Below the pieces are notes generated by a model. That model saw nothing but the letters and a program-made list of their open reading frames with translations. It had not been told where the DNA came from and made no database searches. A DNA stretch of 64,000 nucleotides from Cephalotus follicularis. Its lineage: Eukaryota > Streptophyta > Magnoliopsida > Oxalidales > Cephalotaceae. The stretch is from assembly GCA_001972305.1 (NCBI GenBank), contig BDDD01000179.1:299397-363396 (forward strand), in the 5' to 3' direction. Position 1 is the stretch's first letter, and each line of letters starts with the position of its first letter. Position numbers and translations under genes: made by a program. Positions 6,660-54,006 of the stretch are shown here, piece after piece.

Positions 6660-6869
6660 TGTCACACCCCGTTTCATTATTAACACATGGTTAACCAATT
6701 GATCAAGTATTTACCAATAATTGAAAATTTTTAAACTTTGCGGAAGCACTAAATAATACTGGATTATCCAAATAGTATACATGCAGCCCACACTACATGC
6801 TTAAAATTATACAATTCAAGGTTATATATTACATATTGATAATGTAAATATAACATCACAAGGTACAAC
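6660..6869 (-). repeat. TE3 3' LTR, piece 1
   Basis: Matches 28141-28350 of the 5' LTR closely (starts TGTCACACCC on the plus strand). The match stops where TE4 begins and resumes at 9630. Confidence 0.95.
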
Positions 6870-8028
6870 TGTAATACCCTGCTTGCCTGTACGTATTTTC
6901 CTTACGGGTTTTATTTGTTTTCGTTTAAGTAATTGTATGTTTTTCGTTGGGTTTATGTTTTGGGCTGACTGATACCAGACTTAAGTTTGGGTATGTTGGT
7001 ATGGGTATTCTGTTTGGTGTATTTAGTCATGTTATCATTATTATTACAAAACCATTTTACCAAATACATAATTATTATCTTATATTTATATATAATTTTA
7101 TTAAATTGTATTTTTATAAATTGTTTTAAAACAAAATCCTTTATTTTTATTTCTTTCCTTTTATTTTACTCTCAAACTCTCCCTCCCTCTCACGACATCT
7201 CTCTCCCTCTCAAACTCTCTCTCCCGAATCTCTATCTTCTTTCCTTCTTTCTCCCTAAAAATCAGTCTCTATTCCTTATCCAACAGATTAGTTTTTCCTT
7301 GTTGGATATCCTTTCCCGTTTTGGTCTCTTATTGCTATATATGTATGCAAAGACATTGTTTCTGCCATCTATCTCTCTTTTCCTTGTGGTTGCTGTCGAG
7401 CCTGTCATTGTGAGTGTGTTGCGTTTCTGTGTCTCTGGTTTCAACAATAAGGTTTGTCTCTCCATGGATTAATTGTAGGAATCATGCTTACATTGTCTTG
7501 TATGGTGGGCGGGCTTTGAAATTTTGATGTCTTCCTCTCGTTTTCTTTTTGATAAGCTACTGTGTTCTCCGAATTGGTGTTTCTGCAATCGTTTGTGACA
7601 TCTAACAGGTTGGTTTCCTACGTTGTTATGTCATGGTGATTTGGTCTTGGATTGTTGCCATCAAATTTTCGTATATTGGTTGCTAGAGGAGTAGTTTTGA
7701 TTTCTACCTCCTGCTTTCTGTCAAAAAAAATTCCTGAGGTTGTAACGATCTGTAGTCACATAGGACATGTTATGTAATCTGGTTTTGATGCATGTGATCA
7801 TCATAAATTGACAGAAATGAAAGTATGCAATTGTATGTTATGGTTTAAAGTCCCTGTCACCTTAAATAATTTTCTGTCAACATGTCTTTGTCGAATTCTG
7901 TGTTGTAACAATGTTTTACATGCCATACGAAGTTGTTTTGCATGTTAGTAATCTTCTGGTGTCGAAAAATCCAAGTATTGGCCGCTAAAATTGCACAAAA
8001 TTGCACTGAACTGCTGTTCGGTCACCAG

Positions 8029-8238
8029 AATAGTCGATTGCCCCTATGAACAAGTCGACTGTCTAGTTTGAGTAGTCGACTGCATTGTGCAAACATTCGA
8101 CTGTCTTGTGTTGAGTAGTCGACTGGACCCCTGATTCAGTCGACTGCCTGCTGTTTGGGTTGAGTAGTCGACTGACCTTGTTATGTAGTCGACTGCCACC
8201 CCTTGTTAGTCGACTGGATTTTTGAAACAGTCGGCTGG
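8029..8238 (+). promoter_or_regulatory. Ten-site 21-bp phased AGTCGACTG array in TE4
   Basis: Core TCGACT or a near variant begins at 8034, 8055, 8076, 8097, 8119, 8140, 8168, 8189, 8210 and 8231. Steps are 21, 21, 21, 22, 21, 28, 21, 21 and 21. Most sites read AGTCGACTG, which contains the palindrome GTCGAC; the last is GTCGGC. The 15 bases between cores are not conserved, which argues against a young simple tandem repeat. Twenty-one bases is two DNA turns, so the cores lie on one face of the helix. The binding partner is unknown. Confidence 0.8.
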
Positions 8239-8892
8239 AATGTCCTGTAGCTTTATGTTTTCATCCGTTTATTCTTTCGATGATCCGGGTCTATTTCTAA
8301 ACATCGTTATGATTCTGTTTAATGCTCAAAATGAATTTTAGACCCTTATTTGAACATTGTTATGTTGTTTAGATTATTGTGCTACGTGAAGCAAAATAAA
8401 TATACCTGATATTCGTAAGTTAATCTGTGGTCGCATAAGGTACGGATTCTTCGTTCCTTGATACACTCTTACTGATTTGATTCTGTTTTGAAAATAAATA
8501 TAGATTCTTGTTTTGGGTTATTATTCGGTTTTGTGAATATGCTTCCTTTTGGTTTATGAATTCCGTATATTTGGATTTTGAAAATAAGTCACTTGATATT
8601 TTATGAGGAAAATATTCTGACTTTATGAAATCAGTTATGATGTGTTTACGAAATGTTATGCAATCATCTCTTTATTGTGAAATTAAATGAGTTGATTTTT
8701 CTGATTGTGAAAGTATGTGAACCTATATCGTTTGAGAACGATTTATGATAATGTTTGGGAAAATTTTTCTATGTGTTTTAAATGATTTGATGAAATCATA
8801 GTTTTTGAAATAGTGAAATACTGAGCTTTTTATAACCACCTATGGGGATACCATAGGCATGCTGTGAGCCTGGCACGAGGGCATGACACTTT

Positions 8893-8917
8893 CCGTAACG
8901 GTGTGATTTGTTTACGG
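8893..8917 (+). promoter_or_regulatory. CCGTAA/TTACGG inverted repeat in TE4
   Basis: Six-base perfect arms separated by 13 bases, about 390 bp upstream of the CTGAG/CTCAG hairpin. Its counterpart in TE14 lies near 52078-52102. Other families have CCGT...ACGG pairs with different middles. Confidence 0.45.
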
Positions 8918-9288
8918 CGTCTCTCTGGGATATCCTTTGATAGGATTTGGGATAGAGGCGTATGGATCGATCCTAGTTATATGTTATTGGGATATGGGAA
9001 TTGTATGTGCGGTGCCGTATACTGCAATTCCATTTGGCAATGTGGGTGTCGCGAACCCCTTGCTACTATATGATATGTTATGGGTTTGGTGCTCAGTTAT
9101 GGATCCTATGTTTATGAAAGGTACACTTTATGGTTTTCAAAGTTATGAACTTGGTTTATATGTTTTATCGTGGGCATTTATAAAACATGTTTAAACTATT
9201 TTATTGTTTAAGATTTCAGTTTTAATATACTTTTTGGAAATCTTCTTGCTTTAAAATATCGTTTACTGTTTTATATTCTATATCCATA

Positions 9289-9303
9289 CTGAGGTTTGCT
9301 CAG
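9289..9303 (+). promoter_or_regulatory. CTGAG/CTCAG hairpin of TE4
   Basis: Perfect five-base stem with a GTTTG loop, 326 bp before the LTR end. It occupies the place of the TTAGCC/GGCTAA hairpin in other LTRs. Confidence 0.6.
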
Positions 9304-9726
9304 CCGCGTTTTTGTTTCCATGCGGCAGGTTATCAGGAGCAAAGGGGCAATGTGTGATGAGAGTGACTCCCATATGTCTGAGGAACATCTAGGAGCTGAT
9401 TCCTCTGTGTTTATGTGGTCGTAGTGGGACCCGTTTATTATACAATATGTTAATTTGATTTATGACCTATGGATTATGCATAAGTTTCAGTTTATGATCA
9501 GATTTTATATGTTTTGGATATGCTTTAAACCATCACGTTTTTAATAAAATGAACGTTTTAATATGATATGTTATGTTTAGTTTCCGTTATATGCACCCGT
9601 GGTGACTCCCACAGCTCGGGGGTGTTACAACAACTTATTACAATTACAACATTAATTAAAACCTTCAAGGAAAGCTTCAACAGCACTTGTCCCGATCCCT
9701 TGCTAGTCAATATGAAATTTTAGGTA

Positions 9727-9964: not shown

Positions 9965-10216
9965 CCCAACGATGCACCACCTAACTACCACCATACACTT
10001 CGATGATGATGGAAAAGGTAAATAGTATTACCGGCGCTTAGCGGGCAACTAACACTCACGATCTACATTGCAGATAAGTTTGGTGAATAAGCTCTAGCCA
10101 ACTCCTGTCAGCTAGGCCCACCTCTGTAGTTCGTGATACACTCCGATCACAAGACCATCAGACTATAAATCACAAACATTACAGTTCAGTTATTACATAT
10201 AAAATGTAATATAACA

Positions 10217-10934
10217 TGTAACGCCTGGTATTTTTGTTTTGTAATATTTCGTTCTAAGATGTAATCGTATGCTTGAATTAATAAAAATGATAGAGATTTC
10301 ACCTCAATAATGTTACCGAACCCTAATTATTGCTTTGGGAGAAAGGAATGTGTATGTTTAAATCAAAACGGTGCAGTTCTGGGATAAATGCGTCGATGTC
10401 TTTGGAAAGACGTCGACGGCTATGGGAGCAAAGGCGTATGCGAATGCATGTACATGCACGTCGATGTAGGCAAAGACATCGACCCCCACGTATAAAAGGG
10501 AAAAGACATCGACGTCTATGGAAGACGTCGACGTCTTTGAAAAGAATATCAGTCACGTTATGGACTGACAGAATAACATGCAATGGGGCAATTTTTGAGG
10601 CACGGGAAGGAGACGTGTTGATCATGCATAATGCATCCTGACCTGCATGACTGAGGAAGGAGGAAGAACATGACAAGTGTGGGTGTGCATGCAAACTGCA
10701 GAGAACTTGAGAAGGAAACAAAATGAAATGCAGAATTTAACTGGGAAAGAGGGAGAGAACACGAGAGTGTTCATTGAATGCAGGGAGAAAGAGGGAGAGG
10801 GAGCCATCTGCATAAGAACAACCCCCTCCCCACCTCTCTCTCTCTCGTTTAAAACACCAAAGGAAAGGAAGATGAGGAAACCAGTGAGTGGGATAAAGAG
10901 AGAACCACCATTGCTGAACTTGGTTGGAGCTTGG
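10217..10934 (+). repeat. TE5 5' LTR portion
   Basis: Aligns with 16350-17067 almost base for base, then gives way to TE6 sequence. It includes the early TCGACG motif group (about 10391-10540) and a TATA box at 10491-10497. Confidence 0.92.
10491..10497 (+). promoter_or_regulatory. TATA box of TE5 LTR
   Basis: TATAAAA followed by GGGAAAAG, inside the early TCGACG motif group about 275 bp into the LTR. The 3' LTR copy is at 16624-16630. TE1 has a weaker version (TGTAAAAAGGG) in the same place. Confidence 0.5.
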
Positions 10935-13488: not shown

Positions 13489-13888
13489 TGTTGTCACACC
13501 TCGTTTTCCAATTTAAGACAACATATAAAGTGGTAAGGCAATCAACATAATATAATTCAGCTCATGCGATAATACGAATAAACAAAAACCTTCAAAAGTG
13601 GAAGCAATAACGTAAATGAGCCGAATTTAAACACGCATCACGAATCCCAAACAACGTGATGCCCAACAAGGTTTATATAAATAACCCAACATCATTGTCG
13701 ATCGCCCATAAACGGAGCGTGATAATACAGTACAGAATAACAAAATATCCTTTGTTACAATAATCCGGTAACTTAATCATTGTTCAATTACTCAAATCAT
13801 AAAAATAAGAGAAGTAACTAAGTCTTCTCTTTAAGCCTCCATGCATGCTCCATATCACATCCACTCCGTCAATCTGTTACAGTAGGGG

Positions 13889-13913
13889 TTAGCCTTTGTC
13901 CTCACTCGGCTAA
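13889..13913 (-). promoter_or_regulatory. TTAGCC/GGCTAA hairpin of TE6 LTR
   Basis: Perfect six-base arms and 13-base loop, about 400 bp from the LTR 3' end. Downstream on the minus strand is CCCCTACTGTAACAGATTGA, nearly as in TE1 and TE5. Confidence 0.65.
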
Positions 13914-14136
13914 GTAGAAAAGTTAATGTATACAGTTTAAGGTCAAGGTAATGCGTATCATGAATGAATGCATAGTGATGCAGTATGACATGAAATTTTC
14001 ACAATAATTATATCTCCGTATATACATATAAAAATATATGCATGTTCATCATACAAGAATAACTCCGTAAGTTGTATCAACACAAGCAATAAGTATGTCC
14101 CAAAAGGAACCAGACAAACAAGTCGTCATAACCGTC

Positions 14137-14149
14137 GCCACCTCCTGGC
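14137..14149 (-). promoter_or_regulatory. GCCA-GGAGG-TGGC mini-hairpin of TE6 LTR
   Basis: Perfect four-base stem and GGAGG loop on the minus strand, followed by GACGG as in TE5. Confidence 0.5.
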
Positions 14150-14177
14150 CCCAACGTCATGCACTCTTACCCCATCC

Positions 14178-14191
14178 CCGTTTGCGAACGG
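14178..14191 (-). promoter_or_regulatory. CCGTT/AACGG inverted repeat of TE6 LTR
   Basis: Five-base perfect arms around a four-base centre. The same element occurs in TE5 near 18419-18432. Confidence 0.45.
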
Positions 14192-14663
14192 TTTTGGAGC
14201 AAGTCCTCCGTATGTTGTTTAGCGCGGCGGCTAAACCAACAACAAGTTACTAGCACAGCGGCTAAGTAATCAACAAGTTACTAGCACAGCGGCTAATAAT
14301 CAACAAGCACAAGCATTACAAGTCAAGCAATAAAATATGATTACTTGATCATATATATTTGTTTAAAATATATTACTCCATTCACAAGTTGTGATAAGTT
14401 ATAAAACTTAAAACATTTCTCCGTCTTTGGAAATACTTCCCCAATCATTTCGAAAATATATAAATTCATATGTTGACAAATATACATTTTCGTACAAAAT
14501 GATTATAATAATCATACAAGCTTTTCAAAATGGTTAACACTTTTTAGAAATCAACAATAATGCAAATCACAGTAATAATGCAAACATATGCTCAGAATGC
14601 ACCTAGGGTCGTTGGTAATTAACCTAGGCCTATCACCTTCTCTAGAAGTCCAATTTCTGCTGT

Positions 14664-14881
14664 AACAGTCGGCTGTTTTCCATAACAGTCGACTGGATCC
14701 TTGAGTTAGTCGACTGTTCTTCCTCAACAGTCGGCTGGTTCATCACGAGCATTAGGCAGTCAACTGCCTTCCTTCGACAGTCGACTGTTCTGGGTAACAT
14801 CGTATGCGCAGTCGACTGCTATTACATGCCAGTCGACTAGATGTTTGAGTAGTCGACTGCTTTACTTAAACAGTCGGCTGC
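14664..14881 (-). promoter_or_regulatory. Ten-site phased CAGTCGACTG array in TE6 LTR
   Basis: Cores begin at 14669, 14689, 14710, 14731, 14760, 14781, 14812, 14833, 14853 and 14874. Steps are 20, 21, 21, 29, 21, 31, 21, 20 and 21. Three sites carry GTCGGC and one GTCAAC in place of GTCGAC. The array lies about 1.15-1.37 kb into the LTR, as in TE4. Confidence 0.75.
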
Positions 14882-15712
14882 TCTGGGCTGGATAGTACCA
14901 GTAATCCAATTCTAAATCCATCCAACAAGTCATTGAAATCATTCCACACATATTCATATCACAGAATATCATCAGTAGTCATATTATGTTCTAAAACACA
15001 ACTCAATTCATGCATTATTCTCCGTTTTCATCATAATTCAAATGAAATCCAAATATGGCATTGCATGAAAACCAATCCAAATTCTCCATTCAAAATCAAT
15101 GTGCATATCAGGTTATTCATTAATCAGTAACCATGACCTTAACACAGAAATCCATAACCAACAACTACACTATTCATTAATAACATCATTACTCTTTAAA
15201 CTCAAAATGCATGCATAACATTCTCTACCACTACCCCTACCTTTGATTTCAAGTTAGAAATCGGAAGTCCACCTCTTTGTGTCTCCTTTCCAGTGTCTTT
15301 GAGCCTCCCAGTAGCTCCAAGAACAATCCAGCAGCTTCAATCCAATCTCCAAGCTTAACAATGGAGGATCCTCTCACTTCCTCACTATTTCTCACTCAAA
15401 TTCTCACTATCTTGGCTCTCAATCTCTCTGGTTCTCTCTTATCATATTGTAGGGTGAGAGAGAGACGAAGGCATGAAGCATTTATGCAGTTCTCTCACTC
15501 ACAATTCGTTTGCCTAGCATTAAGAGCTTTCTCTCCCATTTACACTTGCATACACACACACTTGTCATTCATCATCTTCCTTTCTGTCCCTGCAGGTCCT
15601 GGCATGGTGATGCATGCTCAACACATCTTGTTTGTCATCAGATGGCGCCTACAAGATACCCTTTTCAATGGCTGCATGTGATATCGTCACATGCAGATAA
15701 AACAGGGCATGA

Positions 15713-15866
15713 TCCAGTCGGTTGCCTTTCCCTGTAAGTCGGCTGCTTCGCCTGGCAGTCTGTTACCAAGTGTCATGATAGTTGGCCAGTCGGCTGGTTC
15801 CTCATGCCAGTCGAGTGCCTCTCCCTTTAGTCCAATAGTCTGCTGGTATATCGCACCAGTCGGCTG
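15713..15866 (-). promoter_or_regulatory. Early phased motif array in TE6 LTR
   Basis: More degenerate CAGTCGGCTG-type cores near 15718, 15739, 15759, 15790, 15811, 15839 and 15860. Steps are 21, 20, 31, 21, 28 and 21. The position, 160-320 bp into the LTR, matches the early groups in TE1, TE3, TE5 and TE7. Confidence 0.6.
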
Positions 15867-16031
15867 TCCAGGCCAAAAATCCCCACAAATTATACTCAGA
15901 ATCACACCTCCAAATGCTCTAAGTCAATTAAATTCAAGATATCAACCAGGAATTCCACTCTTTTATTAATTCAAGGTAAAAGTTCATCGAGGATTACAAT
16001 AATACATGAAATTAAATTTCCGGGCGTTACA

Positions 16032-16309
16032 CCTACCTTGTCGGGCGTACATGACGTCTTTCATGTATCGATGCTACGAGGTTATATCTGAGATCCATCA
16101 CATGTCCTGGATTATGACTCAGTTACGGTGAGGGACGATCTTTCCTGCGAGGAGTCACCCGTGAGAATCTTGGATTGGAAGACACAAGTATTGAGGAACC
16201 GGACTATTCCGATGGTAAAGGTTCAGTGGCAATTTCATCGGTCGGATGAAGCGAATTGGGAACGTGAGGATGATATCTGGGAACGTTACTCGCATTTGTT
16301 TTAGTATTG
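16032..16309 (+). pseudogene. TE5 integrase C-terminus and chromodomain remnant
   Basis: Plus-strand end of gypsy pol close to that of TE1: a VHDVFHVSMLRG-like start, DPSHVLDYDS, RILDWK, PMVKVQWQFHR and ERYSHLF. It is separated from the rest of pol, which is not present, by TE6. Broken. Confidence 0.85.
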
Positions 16310-16332: not shown

Positions 16333-16349
16333 CTTGAAGGAGGGGTGGA
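16333..16349 (+). other. TE5 polypurine tract
   Basis: TTGAAGGAGGGGTGGA directly before the 3' LTR, nearly identical to TE1. Confidence 0.85.
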
Positions 16350-18479
16350 TGTAATGCCCGGTATTTTTGTTTTGTAATATTTTGTTCTAAGATGTAATCG
16401 TATGCTTGAATTAATAAAAATGTTAGAGATTTCACCTCAATAATGTTACCGAACCCTAATTATTGCTTTGGGAGAAAGGAATGTGTATGTTTAAATCAAA
16501 ACGGTGCAGTTCTGGGATAAATGCGTCGATGTCTTTGGAAAGACGTCGACGGCTATGGGAGCAAAGGCGTATGCGAATGCATGTACATGCACGTCGATGT
16601 AGGCAAAGACATCGACCCCCACGTATAAAAGGGAAAAGACATCGACGTCTATGGAAGACGTCGACGTCTTTGAAAAGAATATCAGTCACGTTATGGACTG
16701 ACAGAATAACATGCAATGGGGCAATTTTTGAGGCACGGGAAGGAGACGTGTTGATCATGCATAATTCCTCATGACCTGCATGACTGAGGATGGAGGAAGA
16801 ACATGACAAGTGTGGGTGTGCATGTAACCTGCAGAGAACTTGAGAAGGAAACAAAATGAAATGCAGAATTTAACTGGGAAAGAGGGAGAGAACACGAGAG
16901 TGTTCATTGAATGTAGGGAGAAAGAGGGAGAGGGTGCCATCTGCATAAGAACAACCCCTTCCCCACCTCTCTCTCTCTCGTTTAAAACACCAAAGGAAAG
17001 GAAGAGGAGGAAACTAGTGAGTGGGAGAAAGAGAGAACCACCATTGCTGAACTTGGTTGGAGCTTGGAACTTGGAGCTGGTGGCTTGCAGCAACGGGAAG
17101 GACCTAGAGGCTGCTGTAACCAGTTTGGAACGAAAAGAGGTAGACCTTCTAGTTCCTAACTTGGAACAACAAGGTAGGGGAAGTGATGATTCTTATACAT
17201 GCCTTTTGAGTTCTAAGATAATGAATGCCATTGATGAATTGCATGTTAATGGGTGAATTGTAATCTCTGGACTTCTGTGATGATTACTGTGAAATACGGA
17301 GTAACCATGCATGTGTGATTACATGAATGTGTGAACTGGTTTGTGTAAAGGATGGATTTGATAATGGCTTGGTGTGTTAAAACTGTGGAGAAAACGTTCT
17401 GGGTTGGATAGACATCGATGCCTACATAAGGACGTCGATGCCTTCGTGTGGAAATGTCAAAGACATCGATGCTTGAGTAAAGACATCGATGCCTTTCATG
17501 GGCATTGTAGAACAGTAATGTTATGCCTTCGTGTATGAATGCGAAAGACATCGATGTCTTTGGGAAGACATCGACGCCTTTTCTGGGTATTGTAGAACAG
17601 TAGTGTTTACTGTGATGGTGAAATGCAATTGGTGGTCGCATGTTTTATTCATGCAACGATGTTCTGGTTACATATTATGATAACCAGTGGCATGCCTTAC
17701 ACTTTGAGAGGGTGAGATTTGTTTATACGAAGGTTTAAAGGGTCGGATTCTACCCTCTAGAATCAAGATTCGCGAACTGAGACTCCCTGGTATCATAAAG
17801 ACATCGACGTCTTTGGAAAAGTATCGATGTCTTTGGTCCAAAAACGCCTGGGAATAACTGTATGAATTGTTGGCGCCTTAGGGTAAAGACGTCAACGCCT
17901 TTGGGATGAGCATCGACACTTATCCCTCTGTTTGGAAAAGTTCACTCGAATGGGGCCCGTTAGACCCGAAACGACTCGAGAAACGATCCTAGATGCATTA
18001 TGAGCATATGTTTGCATTATTACTGTACTGTGAATTGCATTGTGGTTGATTTCCAAAAAAAGTATTAACCATTTTGAAAATGCTTGCATGATTATTATAA
18101 TCATTAATTGCACGAAAATGTATATTTGCCAAATACGTATATATTTTCAAAATGATTGGGGAAAGTATTTTCCAAAGACGGAGAAATGTTTAAAGGATTG
18201 GCTATACAATCAAATTGTATTGTTTTAAGTTTTATAACTTATTACAACCTGATAACAGAGTTTTATATTTTAAACAAATATATTTGATCAAGTAATTATA
18301 TTTATTGCTTGACTTGTACTGTATGGTGTTTGTGCTTGTTGATTATTGGTCGCTGTGCTAATAACCTGTTGATTGTTTAGCCGTCGTGCTAAGCAACCTG
18401 TACGGAGGACTTACTTCAAACCGTTCGCAAACGGGGATTGGAGTAAGAGTGCATGACGTTGGGGCCAGGAGGTGGCCAC
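16350..18479 (+). repeat. TE5 3' LTR, piece 1
   Basis: Starts TGTAATGCCC. It carries the early TCGACG group (about 16523-16672) and a later group (17411-17930) with pairs about 20 bp apart. It is cut by TE7 exactly within the GCCA-GGAGG-TGGC mini-hairpin neighbourhood (18464-18476) and resumes after 21193. Confidence 0.92.
17411..17930 (+). promoter_or_regulatory. TCGATG/TCGACG motif groups in TE5 3' LTR
   Basis: Repeated ACATCGA(T/C)GCCTTT-like cores, for example near 17415, 17435, 17466, 17486, 17551 and 17571, mostly in pairs 20 bp apart, about 1.06-1.58 kb into the LTR. Confidence 0.55.
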
Positions 18480-18650
18480 TGTAATGACCGCAAATTCAAT
18501 TAATGTATATTGATTCCATTGTTAAAATAAATATACATTTTAATTGAATTATTTGTCCAATTACTATGTTATATGCTTTGCTTGTATGCCAAGGTTGAAT
18601 TGATGTGTAAATGGGTAAAACAACCTAAGTAAACTTAAATAATCAGCCTC

Positions 18651-18733
18651 AACAGTCGACTTTCACAGGGTAACAATCGACTGGGTTGATTCGTGGAGTG
18701 ACAGTCGACTGGCCACCTAAGGCAGTCGACTGG
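18651..18733 (+). promoter_or_regulatory. Early phased CAGTCGACTGG array in TE7
   Basis: Four cores at 18656, 18677, 18705 and 18726; steps 21, 28, 21. Confidence 0.7.
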
Positions 18734-19779
18734 AATTGCAGCAGACCAGGTGTCTATGCATGTGTGAGACGGGACAGGGGAGTGCTATGCAAGGGGACAA
18801 GTGTCGTGGGCATGCCACCAGCTGCCATGACATGCAAGGAAAGCCCTTTCATGTGCTCTGCAAGATTGCAGACCTGTACCTGCAGAAACAAAAGAAAGAA
18901 AAGTGAGAAATGACAATGAAGGAAGTAAGGCATGTGAGAGAGAGAATGGAGAAAATGTTAGAGTAAAGGACTCTGGCGAATTCAAGAATTCTTGAGCCTA
19001 TATCAGCTGTGCATGAGCTGAGGGTGAGTGTTAAAAACACTAAAGACTGAGGAGAGTTGCTGGGATTATTGGAGCTTGCGTTGAGAAATTGGAGTGGAGC
19101 TCAAAGACTTGGAAGCTTTGGACTTCTCCTGGTAAGTGTTCAAATTCGAAATCCCTGCTTAGGTAGTACTGTTAATGTTGTAACTAGGAAGGTTAATTAT
19201 CTTCTGTTGGTAAAGGATTAACAATTCAAGAATGGCATTGAAAGGGTAATATGGGAGTAAGAACATGGACATGAAGCTTTGAGGATTATATAACTCTAAC
19301 TCGAATTAAACCTGTTGGTTAGTTGTATTATGCCTCCTGATCTCTTAAATGTAGTTATGCATCCTCTATCCACACATTAATCCGAAATTGAAAGATGCAT
19401 GACATAGAGTTCCAAAGAGGAAATGGTAAAATGGAAGTAAGACTTATGGAATTTGTGATAAGCTGCTGTGTAGTAGGTAATTGTAACTGATAGCTAGTTA
19501 ACCTACTGATTAGGTGACTGAACCTCTAAACATGCATGCATAGATTATTCTTGCTGGATTCGAAGGATTGTTGGGAAAAGGCTTTGGAAGCTTTAAAGAG
19601 AAAGATCAAACCCAATTGATCTTGGGATAGCGATTGAGGTAGGGGTAACGATATGTTTTGGAAGATATGAGCATGCATATCATGTATGTTTACTTTTCTG
19701 CATTATTGCATGTTTGATTGGATTGGTATTATAGATTGGAAATTGCAAACTGCTACTGCCTCCATTTTCTGGGCAGAAG

Positions 19780-19872
19780 CAGTCGACTGCTCTTCATGGC
19801 TGTCGACTACTCAACCTATCCAGTCGACTACTCAACCAAGGCAGTCGGCTATTCTTGAAGGCAGGCGACTAT
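19780..19872 (+). promoter_or_regulatory. Later phased array in TE7
   Basis: Five cores at 19783, 19803, 19824, 19845 and 19865; steps 20, 21, 21, 20. About 1.3-1.4 kb into the LTR. Confidence 0.7.
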
Positions 19873-20500
19873 TCTGGGTAAATTTACTGGTATAAGTCCT
19901 GTTAAGGCCTCAATTTTGAATGTAATGAACTTGGCCTCCATATGGATGACTAGAACAGTTAATCCGGACCTCATATACAATTACATTCCAAAACTAAACA
20001 ATGTACGCACTCCTTGTGAGAGTTGCATATGAATTGACTATGTAATGCTAATCTTGTGAATCCTTGCATTGCTACTGATTTGTGTTAATGCTGCTGAATA
20101 TGCCACTGTCATATTAGTATATATTGTTTTGGTGTCATTAACACCACTACCACTTGTATTTCAATAATTGAAACCAACTAGGGGCTATGTACCCAAATTA
20201 TGATATCAACTATCATTTTCAAATGGATGATTATCGCCAATTGAACTACTGATTTTCCTCCTATATGAGAGGTACCTACTGTTTTGTTTCCAAATTGGAA
20301 ACCACTATTGTACTGATATCGTTTTCCTCATATGAGATGTACGATCACTGAAATGTTATATGTTTCTAAAGAAACATCTTTTATATTGCATACTATTGAT
20401 ATATGTAATATTACTATTGAACTGCTTGAATTATTTGTCTATGCTTACTGTCGTAGTTTAGTGATGGAGGATGTCACTGACTACGGATGTAATTCTGGGT

Positions 20501-20513
20501 GCCAGGAGTTGGC
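20501..20513 (+). promoter_or_regulatory. GCCA-GGAGT-TGGC mini-hairpin of TE7
   Basis: Perfect stem. A second copy at 20642-20654 has stem GCTA/TAGC with the same GGAGT loop, a paired change of both arms within one LTR. Confidence 0.55.
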
Positions 20514-20824
20514 CAGAGCATCACCCAAACTTATCTGCATTGCATATCTTATTTGTTAAACTACCCGCCAACGCCGGAAGTAAATGTTACCTGTCTGTCA
20601 TCTTCAGAGTGAAGGTGATAGTTAGGTGGTGCATCGTTGGTGCTAGGAGTTAGCGACCGGTGACACCCAACCACTGTATGAACCCTTGTGCGGTATTCTT
20701 GCATATGAACTGTTTATGGCCACTTGGCATGATTGCTTATATATTGGCACAATTATATGTTATTTTGTATAAGCTATCATACATGTTGCATTCATATGTT
20801 CCCTAGCATACTTTATCTTCCTAC

Positions 20825-20849
20825 TTAGCCAAGTGAGGACAACGGCTAA
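20825..20849 (+). promoter_or_regulatory. TTAGCC/GGCTAA hairpin of TE7
   Basis: Perfect arms, 13-base loop, about 345 bp before the LTR end. Confidence 0.65.
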
Positions 20850-21193
20850 CCCCTACAATTTTAGATTAAGCAAGGACGATCGAAGATTACTGCTGAAGCT
20901 TGGAGAGCTTCTACTTTCGTTTTAAGGTTGTTATTTTCATGATGTTGTACTGTTTTGTATTGAACGGTTCATACCTCGTTAATATTGTACTATCGCTTGT
21001 AAGGATAATTTATCTGAATTGTAACCGCACGTAGTATGGGATACGTGCGGAAGACTTATGTTATATTCTGGCTTATTGAATGCTTCCGCATATTGTTTTA
21101 TGATTTGTTAAATGAATGCTGGAATATATATTCAATTACTGATATCACCACATATGCTTGTCTATATTGGAATTGAAATAACGGGGTGTGACA

Positions 21194-21839
21194 GCGACGG
21201 TCATGACGACTTGTTTGTCTGGTTCCTTTTTGGGACATACTTACTGCTTGTGTTGATATAGCCTTATGAGGTTATACCTGTACTGTGGACATGCATATAC
21301 TTTATACATGTTTATATTGCGATATATATACTGCGACATATATATATACTGTACTGCATCATAATGCATTCATTCATGATGCTCATTATCATATACCTCA
21401 AACTGTATTTATGAGTCTTTTCACTTAGCCGAGTGAGGACAAAGGCTAACCCCTACTGTAACAGATTGATGGAGTGGGATTCGATATGGAGCAACGCAAG
21501 GAGACTTAAGGAGAAGACTGAGTTGTTCTCTTACTTTATGTACTGGTTTACTGAACAATGATTATGATAATTGAATTTGTAACGTGGTTTATTTCTTTCG
21601 TACTGTATTATCACGCTCCGTTTATGGGCGGTCGACAATGTTGATGAGTTTTATATAAACTTTGTGGGTATCACGTAGTATGGGATGCGTGATACATACT
21701 TAAATTTCAACTTACTTCATGTTATTGCTTCCGCTATTGAAGGTTTTTGTTTTCATGTGTTATCGCATAAGCTGAATTATGTTGTGTTGATTGCCTTACC
21801 GCTTTTATGTTGCTTTCTTGGAAAAATGGGGGCGTGACA
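21194..21839 (+). repeat. TE5 3' LTR, piece 2
   Basis: Continues the TE5 LTR after TE7 to its GTGACA end. It contains the TTAGCC/GGCTAA hairpin at 21425-21449. Confidence 0.92.
21425..21449 (+). promoter_or_regulatory. TTAGCC/GGCTAA hairpin of TE5 LTR
   Basis: Identical arms and almost identical loop to TE1, about 390 bp before the LTR end. Confidence 0.65.
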
Positions 21840-23463
21840 TAACAGTGGCTCTCTTTTGTAGAGAAAACAGTAAAACAGTTCAGGAGGTTCTCATTTTGAG
21901 AAAACAGTACAGTGGAAAACATTTAGTTGTGCATATAGCACTCAGTAATTGAAATCTTTTGAACAATAGTATTTATATGAATTATTTTGATAGATATAGT
22001 ATATCTATAACAGTAAGTAATATGCAATGCATAACAGTACATTCATTAGCAGTTCAAAGATCAACAGTGGATAAACAGTACACTCAATATCAAATTATAA
22101 GAATCAAAATAGTAGTGGTTACGTTATTCAATTTCTATAATCTGACTACACATAGCAAGGACCGATTGTTGAAATCATCCTACGTGGAAGCTAGTGTAAT
22201 CTCATGGGATTTGAACCTTAACAGGACAAAAATGTCGACTGTCCAGTCTTAAGCATCGACAGTTCTAGAGAAGTGTCGACAGTTAACTCCAAGGCGTCGA
22301 CAGTTTACATTAAGCGTCGTCAGTGTTCGTCGATTAAGCGTCAACAATTTCCACTCAAAGCGCTGACAATTTCTCCTTAAACTTCAACTCTTTTCTCTTA
22401 AGCGTCGACGATCCCCTAATAAGCGTTGACGGTTTCTATCGTTCATACGATTTTACAGTAAACAGAGCATGCATTTCACAATTCAATTCACTCCAATATC
22501 AACATGCAATCATATATAAACCATCTAAACATAATATTCAAACTATATCTTCAAAAACATGTCATAAATCCTGCCTCAATTCGCTATCCCAAAATCAATT
22601 GGATTGATTCCTCTCTTTACATTTCAATACTCTTTCCACCCCACTTAATCTTCAATAATCCCAAAATTAATCTAATTTGCATGTTAACAATAGATATAGA
22701 ACGAAATCAGTACATATATATAAATTGATTAACTACAAATTTAATAGCTGAGCTCAATTTAGAGGCTTACCAACCCAATTGAAGTTCCCATTTCAACTTG
22801 AAACTCCATTTTCAGCATGAAAACTCAATACAGTAGATAGCTTCCTCTATCTTCAACGTTTCCAACTCTCAGCTCACTCTTTCTATCCTCTAATGTAAAG
22901 GAATTTCCTTTAGTGATTCATCAATTCCATTAACTCAAATGTTTAACCTTTCTCTTCTCTCACTCACTCACTGTTTTCTTCCTATTTTGTTTTTCTTTCA
23001 ATTGTGGCAGGTTACAGGTGTTGAAGACACTTACAAGACACTAATCCTTCCTTGTTAGCAGCTGATGACACGTTTTCCGTGGCTTGAAACTTTTCTAGGA
23101 CACCTGCCCTGTGAAGAAAATATTCACGCCATGCCATTATTCTTATTTAATCGACCTACATTAGACACCTGTCTGTGCTTAAAGCGTCGACGGTTTTAGT
23201 CTTGGCATCGACGGTTTAGCACCTGCTCAAAGCTTTGATGTTTTTGTCTTTTGCGTCGACGGTTTGGTGACAAATTCTGTTTCTTAAACTTTATTCAACT
23301 AACTTTCAATTTAGTTCAATATAGTCCAAATGCCATGTAACTAAACCCTCAATATCAACTATCAGCTTAATTCAATGGACAATTAAACATTAATTTGAAA
23401 GTAATGTATAATTTATTTAGCATTTATACAATATACATTAAATTTGAAATTGTGATTATTACA
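21840..23463 (-). repeat. TE3 3' LTR, piece 3
   Basis: Matches 28922-30543 of the 5' LTR. It begins with the TAACA duplication of TE5 and ends at the polypurine tract. It contains the phased array at 22230-22433 and an early group at about 23180-23270. Confidence 0.95.
22230..22433 (-). promoter_or_regulatory. Ten-site phased array in TE3 3' LTR
   Basis: Cores begin at 22235, 22256, 22276, 22297, 22317, 22341, 22363, 22384, 22405 and 22426. Steps are 21, 20, 21, 20, 24, 22, 21, 21 and 21. The consensus here is (G)CGTCGACAGTT, with decayed members. The same array lies at 29311-29514 in the 5' LTR. Confidence 0.7.
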
Positions 23464-23476
23464 TTCCCCCCTTCTT
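23464..23476 (-). other. TE3 polypurine tract
   Basis: On the minus strand AAGAAGGGGGGAA directly before the 3' LTR. Confidence 0.85.
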
Positions 23477-28674: not shown

Positions 28675-29310
28675 CCCAACGATGTACCACCTAACTACCA
28701 CCATACACTTCGATGATGATAGAAAAGGTAAACAGTATTGCCGGCACTTAGTGGGTAACTAACAGTCACGATCTGCATTGTAGATATGTTTGGTGTATAA
28801 GCTCTAGCCAACCCATGGCACCTAGTCCCACCTCTGTAGTCCGTGATACACTCCGTCACAAGACAATCAGATTATCAATGACAAACAGTATAGTACAGTT
28901 ATTACATATATAATGTAATATAACAGTGGCTCTCTTTTGTAGAGAAAACAGTAAAACAGTTCAGTAGTTTCTCATTTTGAGAAAACAGTATAGTGGAAAA
29001 CATTTAGTTGTGCATATAGCACTCAATAATTGAAATCCTTTGAACAGTAGTATTTATATGAATTATTTTGAAAGATATAGTATATCTATAACAGTAAGTA
29101 ATATGCAATGCATAACAGTACATTCATTAGCAGTTCAAATATCGACAGTGGATAAACATTACAATCCATATCAATTTATAAGAATCAAAACAATACTGGT
29201 TACGTTATTCAATTCCTATAATCTGACTACACATAGCAAGGATCGATTGTGGAAATCATCCCATGTGGAAGCAAATGCAATCTAATGGGATTCTAACCTT
29301 AATAGGACAA

Positions 29311-29514
29311 AAATATCGACTGTCCAGTCATAAGCATCGACAGTTCTAGCAAAGTGTCGACAGTTAACTCCAAGGCGTCGATAGTTTACCTTAAGCGTCG
29401 TTAGTGTTCTTCGATTAAGCGTCGACAATTTCTACTCAAAGCGCCGACAATTTCTCCTTAAACGTCAACTCTTTTATCTTAAGAGTTAACGGTCCCCTAA
29501 TAAGCGTCGATGGT
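29311..29514 (-). promoter_or_regulatory. Phased motif array in TE3 5' LTR
   Basis: The counterpart of 22230-22433, with cores from 29316 to 29507 at the same spacing. Several cores have changed between the copies while their positions stayed fixed. Confidence 0.65.
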
Positions 29515-30548
29515 TTCTATCATTCATACGATTTTACAGTAAACAGAGCATGCATTTCACAATTCAATTCACTCCAATATCAACATGCAATCATATAAAA
29601 ACCATCTCAACATAATATACATGATATATTTTCAAAAACATGTCATAAATCCTACCTCAATTCGCTATCCCAGAATCAAATGGATTGATTCCTCTCTTTA
29701 CACTTCAATACTCTTTCCTCACTTAATCTTCAATAATCCCAGAAATTACTCTAATTTGCATGTTAACATTAGATATATAACGAAATCAGTACAAATATAT
29801 ATAAATTGATTAACTACAACTTTAACAGCTGAGCTCAATTTAGAGGCTTACCAACCCAATTGAAGTTCCCATTTCAACTTGAAACTCCATTTTCAGCATG
29901 AAAACTCAATACAGTAGATAGCTTCCTCTATCTTCAACGTTTCCAACTCTCAGCTCACTCTTTCTATCCTCAAATATAAAGGAATTTCCTTTAGTGATTC
30001 ATCAATTCCATTAACTCAAATGTTTAACCTTTCTCTTCTATCTCTCACTCACTGTTTTCTTCCTATTTTGTTTTTCTTTCAATTTTTGCAGGTTACAGGT
30101 GTTGAAGACACTTACAAGACACTAATCCTTCCTAGTTAGCAGTTGATGACAAATTTTACATGGCTTGACACGTTTCTAGGACACCTGCCCTGTGAAGAAA
30201 ATATTCACGCCATGCCATTATTTTGTTTTAATCGACCTGCATCAGACACCTCTCTATGCTAAAAGCATCAACGATTTTAGTCTTTGCGTCGACGATTTAG
30301 CACCTGCTCAAAAGCGTCGATGTTTTCATCTTTGGTGTTGACAGTTTGGCGCCAAATTCTATTTCTTAAACTTTATTCAACTAACTTTAAATTTAGTTCA
30401 ATCTAGTCCAAATTCCATGCAATTAAACCCTCAATAACAACTATCAGCTTAATTCAATGGACAATTAAGCATTAATTTTAAAGCAATGTATAATTTATTA
30501 AGCATTTATACAATATAATAAATTTGAAATTGTTGTTATTACAATTTC

Positions 30549-31096: not shown

Positions 31097-32901
31097 TGTT
31101 AGAAATGGTATTTCATCCCCATATTGAGAATTCGAACAAAGGGTGATTAGAAGTGCAAATAAAATTTTTCTAATAAGGCAGCGAAATTAAAAATTCTTGT
31201 CACCCAGCAAAACAAGTCCAATTTAGGGAATACTAGGTCTAAGGAACACCCACATCAACAACATAATTGAATTGAACATCACACACACATGCTTATGTGA
31301 TAAACATGGCAACACAGAAAAGAACAAGGAAATCATATCGAAAGTGATAGCTCCTTCGTCTTTGCCGGTACTCGCTTGAGAAGACTCCCTTCAAGCTTTT
31401 AGTTCCTCCAAGTCGTTGAGAACTTGCTGCTCCAAACACCAAGTTCTAAAAACGATGACAACTGTTTTTCTCCAAGAATGAAGTCTCTATTTTTCTCCAA
31501 GAATGAAGTCTCTGCTTTTCTAATTAACTATGCTCACTAAGGGAGCATTAAAATTGACAAAGGTTGTCAATAACAATCCACCCTAGGTTAGCTCCAAGCT
31601 TGGTGAACAAAATCGGCGAAGGGATTGCAGAGTGTTTGACGCTTGCACAAAGCTCCGGTGCTTTGTTCACTGGTTTTTACGCAAACGTTGCACACCACTC
31701 ACTATCTTCTGGCACCTATCCTCTCCCTTTTATTTATCCTATTTTCTCTAAGAAAACTAACCAGCATCATGCCTACATGCTCCCTTTATTTCTCCATGAA
31801 AGAGAAACTGACTGGGAGCAGGAGAGAGAACATGCCCTATTTTTGTGGCATTGTGGCATTTTGGTACTAAGCGTCGACGATTTTGCCAAAGGCGTCGATG
31901 CTTAGACAATCAGAACACGTCCGTTTGCGTGTTTTAATAATGCTGGTGTTGTGGTTTGTTTTTCATAAGAAAATGAGTCTAACTCATTCATTTCCTATGC
32001 CACATGTCATTGTCTCCAAGAGAACAGCCACTACATCATATAAATAAGTCCTACCCATTTAAGTGATGCCACATATCTCTTCGAATATTAATTAAATAAG
32101 ATTAAGTGAACATATCACCATTTAACGATGACACAATTCGCAAACTCCACCTAACCAATATTTGATTTTATAATTGTCACCAAGACTAAATATGTCCAAC
32201 ATATTTATGGAGAAATCATTATCGGGTAGGGACCCTTTAAAATCTCGGTTAAAATCGGTGGTGTCATAAATTACCAAAATACCCTTAGTGTTCGGTTAAG
32301 CCATTTTAAATAGTCCCAGACCTATTTAAAATGCTTCAGGACTAATATCCAATATTATCCATATGAAAAATTAATCTAATTAATTTTCTCATAATTTATT
32401 ACACACCGCTGTAACGCGAGACTTTTTGAGTCGTCAGTTCGCGTGTACTATAATCCCTCGTCATACTTGACCCTGCTGAGGTATAGGGTAAGGATACGTG
32501 TCAACCCTAATTTTACCTCAGTGGCTAAAATATCTGATTAATTATTGGGACCTTTGGTAGACTCTCTGGAAATCCAATTTCCATTCCACCTCGACCCTGG
32601 CCAAGGATTTCATAAGTCTAAAGTACAATCAGACCATAATAGGGCCGATCACCTTCGTTCATGTGTGACAATCCCATATTGCGCACTCGCTTGTATTCAT
32701 ATAGATTCGAGTATACCCAAAGACCACCCGATTTCCAGTCCCGCGTAAGAACTGGTTAAGGTGGAGATCAAAGCATAACCGTCTCCATACAAAATAGAGC
32801 AGTCGCTCATCACAAAGGATCAGACGTGTTCGAGAACTCGCTAAGTGATTAGCACTTATACACAACGACAACAAGTAGGAGTCACTACTGACACGAGAAT
32901 A
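31097..32901 (-). repeat. TE8 LTR (right end missing)
   Basis: At least 1.8 kb, starting TGTTAGAAATGG on the plus strand. It includes two GCGTCGA motifs 24 bp apart (31868-31898). The far end lies beyond the CACTA insertion and was not found. Confidence 0.55.
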
Positions 32902-51333: not shown

Positions 51334-51671
51334 TAAACTGTAACACCCCCGAGTCGTGGGAGCCACTATAGTACATATATCAGACACTTAACATAACATT
51401 TCATAATAAAGGAACTCAGCTTTATTGAAACGTGATGGTCTAAAGACATAAACTGTTAACATAACTGAAACTAATAGCTAAACATAGTTCAGAAAACATA
51501 AACCAACTGTCATAAACTGAAACTAACATTTTATTCATAAACTGGCCCTACTATGGCCATATAATAGCATAAACATGGTGGGGTCAACTCCTAGGATCCA
51601 TAAGGGAGTCACTCTCTTCACACGTTACCCCAATGCTCCTGATAACCTTCCGCATGGAAAACAAAACACGT

Positions 51672-51686
51672 CTGAGCAAACCTCAG
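51672..51686 (-). promoter_or_regulatory. CTGAG/CTCAG hairpin, TE14 5' LTR
   Basis: Perfect stem, 335 bp from the LTR 3' end. Confidence 0.6.
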
Positions 51687-52738
51687 TACGAATATAGAAT
51701 GTAAAACAGTAAACGATATTTTAAAAGCAATAAGATTTCAACTTACTTCAAAAACGAAAATCTTAAGCAGTCCAACAGTTTAAACATTCTTTGAAATGGC
51801 CCTCGGCAAAACGTATAAGTTATAACCATAACTTGGAAAACATAAAACATACCTTTCAAAACCACATGTTCCATAACTGAGTACCATATCATATCATATC
51901 ACATATCAGAAACACATAGTAGCAAGGGATTCACAACATCCACATTGCCAAAAGAATTGAAGTGTACGGCACTACACAAACAATTTCCATAACAAATCAT
52001 ATCACATAACATACAACTAGGATTGATCCATACGCCCCTATCACAAATCCTATCCAAGGATATCACAGAGAGACACCGTAAACAAATTACACCGTTACGG
52101 AAAGTGTCATGTCCCCATGCCAGGCCTACGACATGCCTATGGTACGCCCCATAGGTGGGTACAAACTCAGTATGTCACAATTTCGAAAATAATGTTTTTA
52201 TCACAATCAATTTTTAAAACACATAAAGGTTTTCCGAAACATATTCATAAATCGTTATCCAAAACGATAACATTTCATTTAACACATACGTTCATAATCA
52301 GAAAATCACCTTATTTGCACAATAACAGATGATTTCATAACATTTCGTAAACAAATCGGGACCTAAACATAAAGACAGAAATATTCATTTTCATAAGATA
52401 TTAAAAAGACTTCATTTCTTAAAACATACCAAAATACGGATCATTGCGGGGTTCATAAAGTAAAAGGAATCATATCCAAAAAACTGATATTATTTCGAAT
52501 AAATCAGATATCCAAGAAGAGAAAATCCGTAACTTATGAGATCAAAGAAAAGCTTAAGAATAACCGATAATCAAAAAGTCCCACATAGCACAAAAATCTA
52601 TACAATATAAAACATTCATATAAGGGTCTAAAATCACAGTGGACATAAAACAGATTCAATATAGTACTTAAAAAAGACCCGGATTCATCGAAAGAATAAA
52701 CAGATTTAAGAACACGAAAACAGAAAGTTACTGGACAA

Positions 52739-52906
52739 TCCAGTCGACTGTTGCAAGACTCCAGTCGGCTGTTCAAGGGGTGGAAGTCGACTACACAACA
52801 GGGCCAGTCGACTACATAAATTGAACCGCAGGCAGTCGAATGTGACAGGGGTCCAGTAGACTACTCATCACAAAAAAACCGACTGTTCATATGGGAAGCC
52901 AGCTAT
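52739..52906 (-). promoter_or_regulatory. Phased CAGTCGACT array in TE14 5' LTR
   Basis: Cores at 52744, 52765, 52787, 52808, 52836, 52857 and near 52879. Steps are 21, 22, 21, 28, 21 and 22. The single 28-base step and a 22-base step mirror those of TE4 read in reverse, so spacing survived while several cores changed. Confidence 0.75.
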
Positions 52907-54006
52907 TCTGGGTGACAGAAAAGCAATTGAAGACAGTTTTGTGCAATCTTGTAGCCAAAACTCGAATTACTCAACACCAGAAGACTACCATCAACCAAAA
53001 AAACTTTGTATGGCATGTAAAACGATGATATAACACTGAATTTGAAAGAGGTACAAAGACAGTAATTTATCTCAAAGTGAAAGAGAATTTATACCATGCA
53101 TATATCTTCCTAATCAATTTTCTGCATAATTGCCATAGTCAAATTATAGAACCAAATTACACAACACATATGAGATGACAATAGGCTTGCTAACCAACTC
53201 AGAAAGTGATTGACAGAATATGAAAGGCAGGAACCAAAACTGAATTAAACTTTAGCCGCCTATTATATAAGAATTCGATAGACAGCAACACATAGACAAT
53301 CACCATGACATAACAACATAAGGAAACCAACCTGATAATGGCAAAACCAGTTGGAGAGACACTAATTCAGAGGACACAGTAGCTGCTCAAAACGAAACGA
53401 GAGGAAAGAAAATAATGAACTTAAAGCCTGCCCACTATATAAGACAATGTAAAAACGATTCCTACAATTAATCCATGGAGAGACAAACCTGATTGATGAA
53501 GCAAGAGCACCAATAACACAATGAGCTTCAATGGCAGGTTCGGCAGCAACCACAAGGAAAAGAGATGGCGGAAAAATACAATGGCATAACATACATAAAT
53601 AGTAAGAAGAGTAGAACAGGTAAGATAAGGGATAAGGAAAACAAAATCAGTTGAATAAGGGAAGGAGCCAGATTTTTCGGGAGAAAGAAAGGAAAGAGAT
53701 AGAGTTGTGCGGGAGGGGGAGATTGGAAAGAGAGGGATACGGGTGAGAGAGAGTTTGAGAGGGAGAAGGAAAGTAATTAATAAGGAAAATAAGATAAAAT
53801 AAAAGATTTTGTTTTAAAAGCATAATTAATAAAATCAATTTGTAAATATATAATAACCCAAATCTTACCAAATCACATACACATATTACATAATCAAAAT
53901 TAAGGCTGGTATCAGTCAGCCCAAAACATAAACCCAACATAAAGTTGGCCAAGAAATAGATGAAAAGTTCGAAAATACGTACGGACAAGCAGGGTATTAC
54001 AATGAG

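Follow-up and report, generated by a model that had tools for sequence, protein, structure and literature searches.

Analysis of a stretch of 64,000 nucleotides of Cephalotus follicularis DNA (the window) and of related loci elsewhere in the genome led to the recognition of rows of palindromic sites that are shared by long terminal repeats (LTRs) of Ty3 and Ty1 retrotransposons. The occurrence of the same rows in unrelated element families suggests a common regulatory switch shared by the elements, and with moderate confidence we regard them as a cis-regulatory module that is probably bound by a homodimer. The reader would most likely be a host DNA-binding protein that raises transcription of the LTRs or prevents their silencing. 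The module would consist of repeated palindromic DNA sites of the type YAGYCGRCTR, with CAGTCGACTG as the best site, each probably occupied by one homodimer, and a spacing of two helical turns would let neighbouring dimers face one side and cooperate. It would act from directly upstream of the TATA box in a Sirevirus (family F3, see below) and, in an enhancer-like manner and in opposite orientation, from a position ca. 0.7-0.9 kb past the likely TATA boxes in a chromovirus family (F1). A symmetric site for a dimeric protein was already the simplest idea in an earlier note on this DNA, and the palindromic core with its constrained site and spacing appears to support it. The symmetric core, the CG centre, the half-site YAGYCG, the two-turn spacing, the use of either orientation and the promoter-near position in F3 would all fit an array of homodimer sites for a regulator.

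An array of ten CAGTCGACTG-type sites is located at 8031..8238 (+ strand) in a solo LTR of 2760 bp (6870..9629, + strand). This LTR is complete, has TG..CA ends (TGTAATACCC...GGTGTTACA), is flanked by the 5-bp target site duplication ACAAC on the left (6865..6869) and on the right (9630..9634) and encloses no internal region, in agreement with the earlier note, which had placed the array in a solo LTR. The GTCGAC-centred cores start at 8032, 8053, 8074, 8095, 8117, 8138, 8166, 8187, 8208 and 8229, thus exactly at the steps reported before (21, 21, 21, 22, 21, 28, 21, 21 and 21); seven of the ten are GTCGAC itself and the remaining three are GTCGAT, TTCGAC and GTCGGC. The spacers had been described as 15 bases long and unrelated to each other, which needs correction on both counts. 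The conserved core is the 10-bp sequence CAGTCGACTG (site starts 8031, 8052, 8073, 8094, 8116, 8137, 8165, 8186, 8207 and 8228), hence the spacers have 11 bp, and likeness between them exists: TTGAGTAGTC is present three times among the spacers, and TRF detects a faint 42-49 bp periodicity over the array with rows that match at 65-81%. In the real window the pattern AGTCGACT (at most one mismatch) gives a run of 6 neighbouring sites at 20-22 bp, whereas in 40 dinucleotide shuffles no neighbouring pair was 20-22 bp apart and the longest run was 1 site, which excludes chance as the origin of the array.

The solo LTR belongs to F1, which is a Ty3/gypsy chromovirus family. Forty F1 copies, out of 4,516 candidates, were scored at 93-100% identity; sister copies lie 6.7-8.1 kb apart in six contigs, like LTR pairs, and one pair is 3.6 kb apart. 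The gag-pol region between one F1 LTR pair (L024) encodes, on the same strand as the LTR, a Ty3 reverse transcriptase (RVT_1, 3.1e-34), RNase H, parts of an integrase (the rve match of 2.3e-05 is below its cut-off) and a chromodomain (Chromo, 1e-06), with a further match to SH3_Tf2-1 (1.8e-27). The F1 LTR has TATA-like words at 218, 246 and 467, before the array (1162-1368), and one more at 2310. Since the array lies past the first three of these words and the last AATAAA is found at 2674, the array is probably downstream of the transcription start. For rice Retrosat2, U3 is given as 1-244 and R as 245-2266 (PMC3485330).

Several other carriers are present in the window, which its elements mark as plant nuclear DNA. 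A related F1 LTR of about 72% identity, called W_B (51339..54001, - strand), adjoins the PBS-like sequence TGGTATCAGAG and a Ty3 pol region (46592-50925); its array at 52741-52863 has steps of 21, 22, 21, 28 and 21 along the + strand. The second Ty3 family, F2, is represented by a solo LTR (18480..21193, + strand) with two arrays about 1.1 kb apart (18653-18732 and 19780-19871), and in L045, a full-length F2 relative, a Ty3 RNase H is encoded on the LTR sense strand. The LTR of a further element (13492..16031, - strand), which adjoins the PBS-like sequence TGGTATCAGAGC, contains an array at 14666-14881 with steps of 20, 21, 21, 29, 21, 31, 21, 20 and 21; a weaker second cluster at about 15715-15865 was seen by eye.

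The third carrier, F3, is a Ty1/copia element in which an LTR pair of 95.4% identity surrounds an RVT_2 copia reverse transcriptase and an ORF with a PF20167 match (2e-10) slightly below the Pfam cut-off. Sirevirus traits recognised by eye are five GGGGGAGA tracts ahead of the 3' LTR, the primer binding site TGGTATCAGGGC and a poly-C LTR end. F3 is the one Sirevirus for which LTR ends were mapped. Its LTR of 1179 bp harbors 16 sites at 165-583, upstream of a TATA sequence that follows directly at 635, so that the position of the module relative to the likely TATA differs between F1 and F3; further site pairs lie between pol and the third ORF. Another three loci (L036, L037, L049), two of them with 15 and 12 sites (CAGTCGACTG with at most 2 mismatches, mostly CAGCCGACTG), gave no match above 120 bits to the other loci; in L049, 4.1 kb consist of N.

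The 21-bp spacing that had been noted for the ten sites is not peculiar to their own element. After removal of the ten-site array, the TCGA-TCGA distances in the window still include 14 of 20 bp and 15 of 21 bp, whereas 60 shuffles of the window gave about 0.35 on average for each and never more than 2; smaller excesses at 28, 30, 31, 41, 48 and 49 bp were also above every shuffle. Over the 1.577 Gb genome, there are 14,270 triples of AGTCGACT with steps of exactly 21 bp (55 with the reversed pattern) and 88,790 pairs of CAGYCGRCTG at 21 bp (246 with the reversed pattern), the reversed pattern being an incomplete control because it contains no CpG. Other spacings are the better yardstick. Pairs of AGTCGACT number 4,090 at 8-19 bp (12 spacings), 107,493 at 20-22 bp (3 spacings) and 20,099 at 23-36 bp (14 spacings; mostly 27-28 bp among the matches listed), which corresponds to 341, 35,831 and 1,436 per spacing, the 20-22 bp class exceeding the 8-19 bp class ca. 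105-fold. Whole arrays are multiplied by transposition, which inflates these counts; they indicate how common the arrays are, not selection.

Within 28 loci of F1, F2 and F3, the steps between 18 and 24 bp have a mean of 20.88 and a standard deviation of 0.57 (n=204, with L011 and L023 kept in and with the steps of the patterns used for locus finding included). A step of 27-29 bp, or about 2.67 turns, recurs in many arrays, and in dense arrays about four sites each form a block, successive blocks being separated by 49-73 bp; as a class, neither this step nor these gaps correspond to whole turns. Because of these steps and gaps, the helical phase of two turns that the earlier note proposed holds within neighbouring pairs and blocks and not along the whole array. 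In the dense Sirevirus arrays of L025, L029, L041 and L042, each block comprises ca. four sites (three steps of 20-22 bp) and the next block follows after about 50-73 bp, and a higher-order unit of four dimers may exist there. Pairs of AGTCGACT at 13 bp (AGTCGACTCGCTGAGTCGACT) form a distinct class in many contigs, outside the 21-bp arrays.

The arrays of the three families have common features that extend beyond the core. On the sense strand of the LTR, position 1 (T in 40 of 103) and position 7 (G in 21 of 103) are variable in F1 sites, position 4 (C in 14 of 72) and position 10 (A in 13 of 72) in F2 sites, and position 4 (C in 49 of 77) in F3 sites. The variant positions thus make the F1 sites the reverse complement of those in F2 and F3. 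Comparison of the spacers gave the same orientation. With at least 9 bases matched, 9 of 69 F1 spacers match F2 spacers when reversed (null mean 0.8, maximum 4) and none unreversed, 11 of 69 match F3 spacers when reversed (null 0.7, maximum 3) and 2 unreversed (0.5, maximum 3), and between F2 and F3, 9 of 43 match in the same orientation (null 0.5, maximum 2) and none reversed. Each null consisted of 60 letter shuffles, and L023, an F2 locus that holds an F3 array, and L011 of F3 were dropped from this final test. The mean best spacer match between F1 and F2 was 7.30 in the right orientation, with shuffles reaching at most 6.43, and was slightly above the shuffles in the wrong orientation too (6.41, shuffles at most 6.19). 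Core asymmetry and spacer likeness therefore agree that the F1 module is inverted relative to F2 and F3.

As judged from these letters, the array units are related across Ty1 and Ty3 at the level of the single unit. We infer that the sharing probably arose when one family captured 21-bp units of another, after which selection would have kept core and spacing while the spacers drifted. A collinear order of spacers between families was not found, the real and permuted scores being about equal on average, and whole-array transfer is not claimed on the basis of this permutation. Nesting of a Sirevirus LTR within the chromovirus LTR is not favoured, as alignments of F1 copies continue to the left and right of the array, over up to 300 bp and at a flank divergence of up to 46%.

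Two further palindromes, which we call dialects 2 and 3, differ in their flanking bases, lack the CAG/CTG pair and are arranged at a similar pitch of about 20-21 bp. The dialect 2 palindrome GACATCGATGTC fills the LTRs of a Ty3 chromovirus in the window. One LTR with dialect 2 sites (GACRTCGAYGYC) at 10216..10934 (+ strand) is 97.8% identical to the stretch from 16349, of which the mapped extent is 16349..17960 (+ strand); this stretch follows directly after a PPT and the end of a Ty3 chromodomain at 16092-16301, for which the Chromo match (E 0.0072) is below the Pfam cut-off. The steps in this chromovirus are 18-20 and 30-31 bp. Dialect 2 is also found in Sirevirus-like copia elements, namely in L050, with LTR-like paired arrays and matches to RVT_2 (8.8e-80) and PF20167 (8.8e-22), and in L051, where the coding region L071, with copia RNase H motifs and a third ORF seen by eye, lies between paired arrays. 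A sense-strand asymmetry at positions 9 and 11 is common to the Sirevirus (31 sites) and the chromovirus (20 sites). In a forward scan of the genome, ACATCGA pairs on one strand number 8,849 at 12-19 bp, 25,223 at 20-21 bp and 9,678 at 22-29 bp, and exact GACRTCGAYGYC pairs spaced 20 bp apart number 12,586 as compared to 31 for the control.

Dialect 3 (AGCGTCGAC) was counted at spacings of 19-22 bp and occurs 10,441 times genome-wide, with 26 for the control. In the window, sites of this type are present at 29316-29422 in an LTR at 28914..30544 (- strand) and at 22234-22404 in its twin (21839-23466), located after a PPT. The region between the two LTRs encodes Ty3 RNase H and integrase (24263-25327, - strand), and a chromodomain-like end beside the pair was recognised by eye. 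Dialect 3 also flanks the copia coding regions L069 and L070. All four coding regions that were taken between paired arrays of dialects 2 and 3 (L050, L071, L069 and L070) are copia and Sirevirus-like, as is the coding region of F3, so that each of the three dialects occurs in at least one Ty1 and at least one Ty3 family. Plant LTRs are usually regarded as fast-evolving, family-private promoters. Here, each of three palindromic codes is common to a Ty1 and a Ty3 family within a single genome, at a similar two-turn pitch, and the question moves from the binding partner of one LTR to a partner common to all these elements.

The earlier note had compared the array to the LTRs of tobacco Tnt1 and Tto1, in which repeated short boxes act in transcription; that of Tto1 is reportedly a 13-bp element. 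Those elements differ from the present case in having few boxes, of other sequences, each in a single element family. The earlier note missed that rows of palindromic LTR boxes are a published feature of Sireviruses (PMC2829016), as well as the sharing among unrelated families. Palindromic repeated motifs, termed RM boxes, were described by Bousios et al. 2010 in Sirevirus LTRs and upstream of ENV, where the LTR boxes sit upstream of the TATA box and form CpG islands (PMC2829016). They were named Sirevirus-specific in comparison with classic Ty1/copia elements, carry a CGG-CCG core signature with Tnd-1 as the published exception, and could not be linked to any one binding factor (PMC2829016). 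Like RM boxes, the arrays described here consist of many palindromic, CpG-bearing LTR boxes, and the F3 array is located just before the TATA. We looked for three marks of an RM array: at least eight palindromic boxes are present (ten in the F1 LTR and 16 in the F3 LTR), the core of CAGTCGACTG is CAG-CTG instead of CGG-CCG, and F1 is, by its Ty3 RVT_1, RNase H and Chromo domains, no Sirevirus (Ty1/copia) carrier. As to a fourth mark, boxes shortly upstream of a mid-LTR TATA box are present in F3, and in F1 three TATA-like words precede the array. The published RM box of Vitis, CGGTCGACCG, is the same as CAGTCGACTG except that its outer CG pairs are CA and TG here, and kinship of the two is likely from this comparison.

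The carriers and the spacing set the present arrays apart. Published RM boxes are from Sireviruses, whereas here Ty3 chromoviruses carry the sites too and the ten-site LTR is not from a Sirevirus; the parts of PMC2829016 consulted contain no spacing rule, whereas neighbouring sites here are 20-22 bp apart. RM boxes in Ty3 elements were not reported in any of the literature matches listed, and the titles and abstract starts of the matches listed for CAGTCGACTG (20 of 29) include no retrotransposon report. New here are thus the boxes in Ty3 elements, the three cross-superfamily pairs and the two-turn pitch; the RM boxes of Sireviruses are known. The old question which protein reads the Sirevirus boxes becomes testable. 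A single reader should bind, and could switch, very many unrelated LTRs (107,493 pairs of one dialect, counted as pairs and not as LTRs), and the high copy number provides a natural mutagenesis set for site and spacing.

A host factor would be the simplest reader, since F1 has the sites although no third ORF was seen in L024, the sole F1 coding region examined. It is nevertheless conceivable, though we consider it unlikely, that the reader is encoded by the elements. The third ORF of Sireviruses (PF20167, 'envelope-like') would then encode a protein that binds DNA in the nucleus, recognising the palindromes of its own family and protecting them from silencing, and chromoviruses would have acquired the sites and use the protein in trans. 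Sirevirus sites indeed lie in the LTR and ahead of the third ORF (with two site pairs inside L046), and the ORF product has a basic N-terminus and a predicted long C-terminal helix. Linker boxes are reported only where ENV is present, but Sireviruses that lack ENV retain their LTR boxes (PMC2829016). Between dialects, Sirevirus pol is 69-81% identical and the third ORF 18-36% over short aligned parts; the latter also diverges within one dialect (48% with a pol identity of 92%, L069 versus L070), which means that the rapid change of this ORF does not depend on dialect. No usable fold model was obtained for the Sirevirus third ORF (mean pLDDT 44.9), and a search of solved structures gave 5 weak matches (best E 0.071) and no useful relative. 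In total, 134 related third-ORF copies were scored genome-wide. In sunflower, Tekay and Athila elements possess extra ORFs of unclear role, one of them with PF20167 (PMC11728184).

A precedent for repeats that are read by a transposon protein is VANC of the VANDAL elements, the target repeats of which were described by Hosaka et al. 2017 (PMC5735166). As here, a short motif occurs in noncoding parts of transposons, the motifs differ between related families and they have grown as tandem repeats; unlike here, the VANC21 motif YAGTATTAY is not palindromic and is carried by DNA transposons, which themselves encode the reader (PMC5735166). Extended to all three dialects, a role of the third ORF would turn the palindromes into address codes: each Sirevirus third-ORF protein would read its own dialect at two-turn spacing and open its LTRs, and Ty3 chromoviruses would repeatedly have acquired the matching dialect, in either orientation, to use the Sirevirus protein as a common activator. 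We think this improbable; if true, one retrotransposon superfamily parasitises the anti-silencing system of another. If the reader were element-encoded, this would to our knowledge be the first case in which retrotransposon superfamilies share such a system, none being found among the literature matches listed.

Whereas the readings above assign the function to DNA, it may reside in RNA, with hairpins formed by the palindromes in the transcript either feeding siRNA production or escaping it, a model put forward for maize Sireviruses; we rate it here as rather unlikely. In maize Sireviruses, clusters of LTR palindromes in the cis-region coincide with small RNAs (Bousios et al. 2016, as told in PMC10760457). 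The maize palindrome also occurs in Helitrons, an earlier case of sharing beyond Sireviruses (PMC10760457). Any two sites could pair, and the sense variants of F1, YAGTCGRCTG (T1 and G7), retain G-U pairs, on account of which RNA pairing was initially favoured. It was set aside because F2 and F3 carry the complementary variants and show the opposite fold stability: the sense strand folds more stably in 10 of 12 F1 arrays, in 0 of 15 F2 arrays and in 0 of 5 F3 arrays. Fold energies thus follow the module and not the transcript, which is hard to reconcile with selection on the structure of the sense transcript, and the inversion of the array in F1 relative to the other families likewise argues against a selected hairpin. 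The argument is confined to sense transcripts. Moreover, a spacing of 20-22 bp is not required for hairpins, but the arrays contain almost no gaps of 2-6 bp (see below). The maize palindromes are treated as RNA secondary structure by Bousios et al. 2016 (as told in PMC10760457), whereas the strand data speak against this for F1-F3.

Sequence constraint on the proposed regulatory module was examined in 14 aligned F1 LTR pieces with a flank divergence from the ten-site LTR of up to 46%; such pairs share ancestry, so that pair counts are not independent. Over the 85 of 91 pairs with a flank divergence above 0.2, divergence was 0.145 in the cores, 0.407 in the spacers and 0.388 in the flanks, with the core below the spacer in 84 of 85 pairs and below the flank in all 85. 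As 10 of the 14 copies had been retrieved via perfect sites, the retrieval sites were also removed, which gave 0.171, 0.406 and 0.391 (77 pairs), with the core below the spacer in 73 and below the flank in 76. Within the core, positions 2 (A) and 9 (T) are almost invariant, and in ten diverged copies the CpGs of the F1 LTR W_A were retained in 42 of 59 core cells as compared to 48 of 145 flank cells.

The length of the arrays also behaves differently from that of the flanks. In 60 diverged pairs (L038 and L040 excluded), gaps of 2-6 bp account for 1 of 163 gap events within arrays and for 212 of 781 in flanks; single-base gaps number 125 and 502, and gaps of at least 7 bp 37 and 67, the flanks comprising more sequence. 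The larger array gaps are mostly of 42-43, 50-51 and 59-60 bp, which corresponds to several sites lost or gained together. The aligner was possibly drawn to the repeated cores, the flanks being aligned by the same procedure. Taken with the divergence values, the near absence of 2-6 bp gaps supports the constraint on sites and spacing that the earlier note suggested, and both look constrained from these alignments.

Two further explanations bear directly on these data. A purely structural role in chromatin, in which methyltransferases or nucleosomes are guided by CG and CHG sites (CAG..CG..CTG) every 21 bp and no sequence-specific regulator is involved, has in our view only a slim chance. Each core offers one CG and two CHG sites, and its CpG is retained more than in the flanks. 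However, dialects 2 and 3 keep a similar pitch without the CAG/CTG pair, and A2 and T9 are almost fixed although a CHG context permits other bases.

To the other explanation, that the array is a neutral remnant of an old 21-bp minisatellite, we give similarly little credence. The spacers are weakly alike between units and families, and arrays gain and lose units. However, a neutral repeat is expected to lose core and spacer alike, whereas over all F1 pairs divergence in spacers and flanks is 2.3-2.8 times that in the cores, and the spacing is held while the flanks gain or lose 2-6 bp. Orthologous spacers are 41% divergent as compared to 14% for cores, which supports the earlier view that a young tandem repeat does not account for the array; nor can the spacers be aligned like those of a simple 21-bp minisatellite, in which the whole unit would be alike between copies. 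The main caution comes from W_B, for which the comparison is the sole diverged one with neither side retrieved by site pattern and covers one lineage split in three pairs. Against W_A, L002 and L006, respectively, W_B shows core divergences of 0.19, 0.17 and 0.19, spacer divergences of 0.25, 0.21 and 0.20 and flank divergences of 0.30, 0.31 and 0.31, so cores are lower, but modestly, and this small advantage is what a neutral origin can draw on. W_B may simply be an old, decayed insertion. The weak contrast in these three pairs led us to rate the regulatory module lower and the neutral and RNA explanations slightly higher. A coding heptad repeat (21 bp as 7 codons) was rejected, as steps of 20, 22, 28 and 29 bp break the frame.

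Some minor observations concern the Sirevirus third ORF and its surroundings. The ORF starts with MPRTKQPAKKK in L058 (1510-2820) and with MPRTKN in L069 (from 2615), which we take to resemble the histone H3 tail ARTKQTARKS; in L071 (from 2027), which has the same dialect as L058, it starts with MVRSKSIASKK, so this likeness is not general. In L046, a 0.7-kb stretch ahead of the third ORF is tandemly duplicated (at about 2408 and 3107), and each duplicate carries a site pair at 19 bp in an open frame before the first Met. Finally, the window contains at 32900-33660 the end of a CACTA-type transposon (CACTACTGGAAAAAGGGC...) with the subterminal repeats AGCGGTCGGGAAA / TTTCCCGACCGC in 86-bp units. 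This end carries another array, of CGGTCG half-sites, which by analogy to En/Spm presumably serve the transposase partner of the CACTA element itself.
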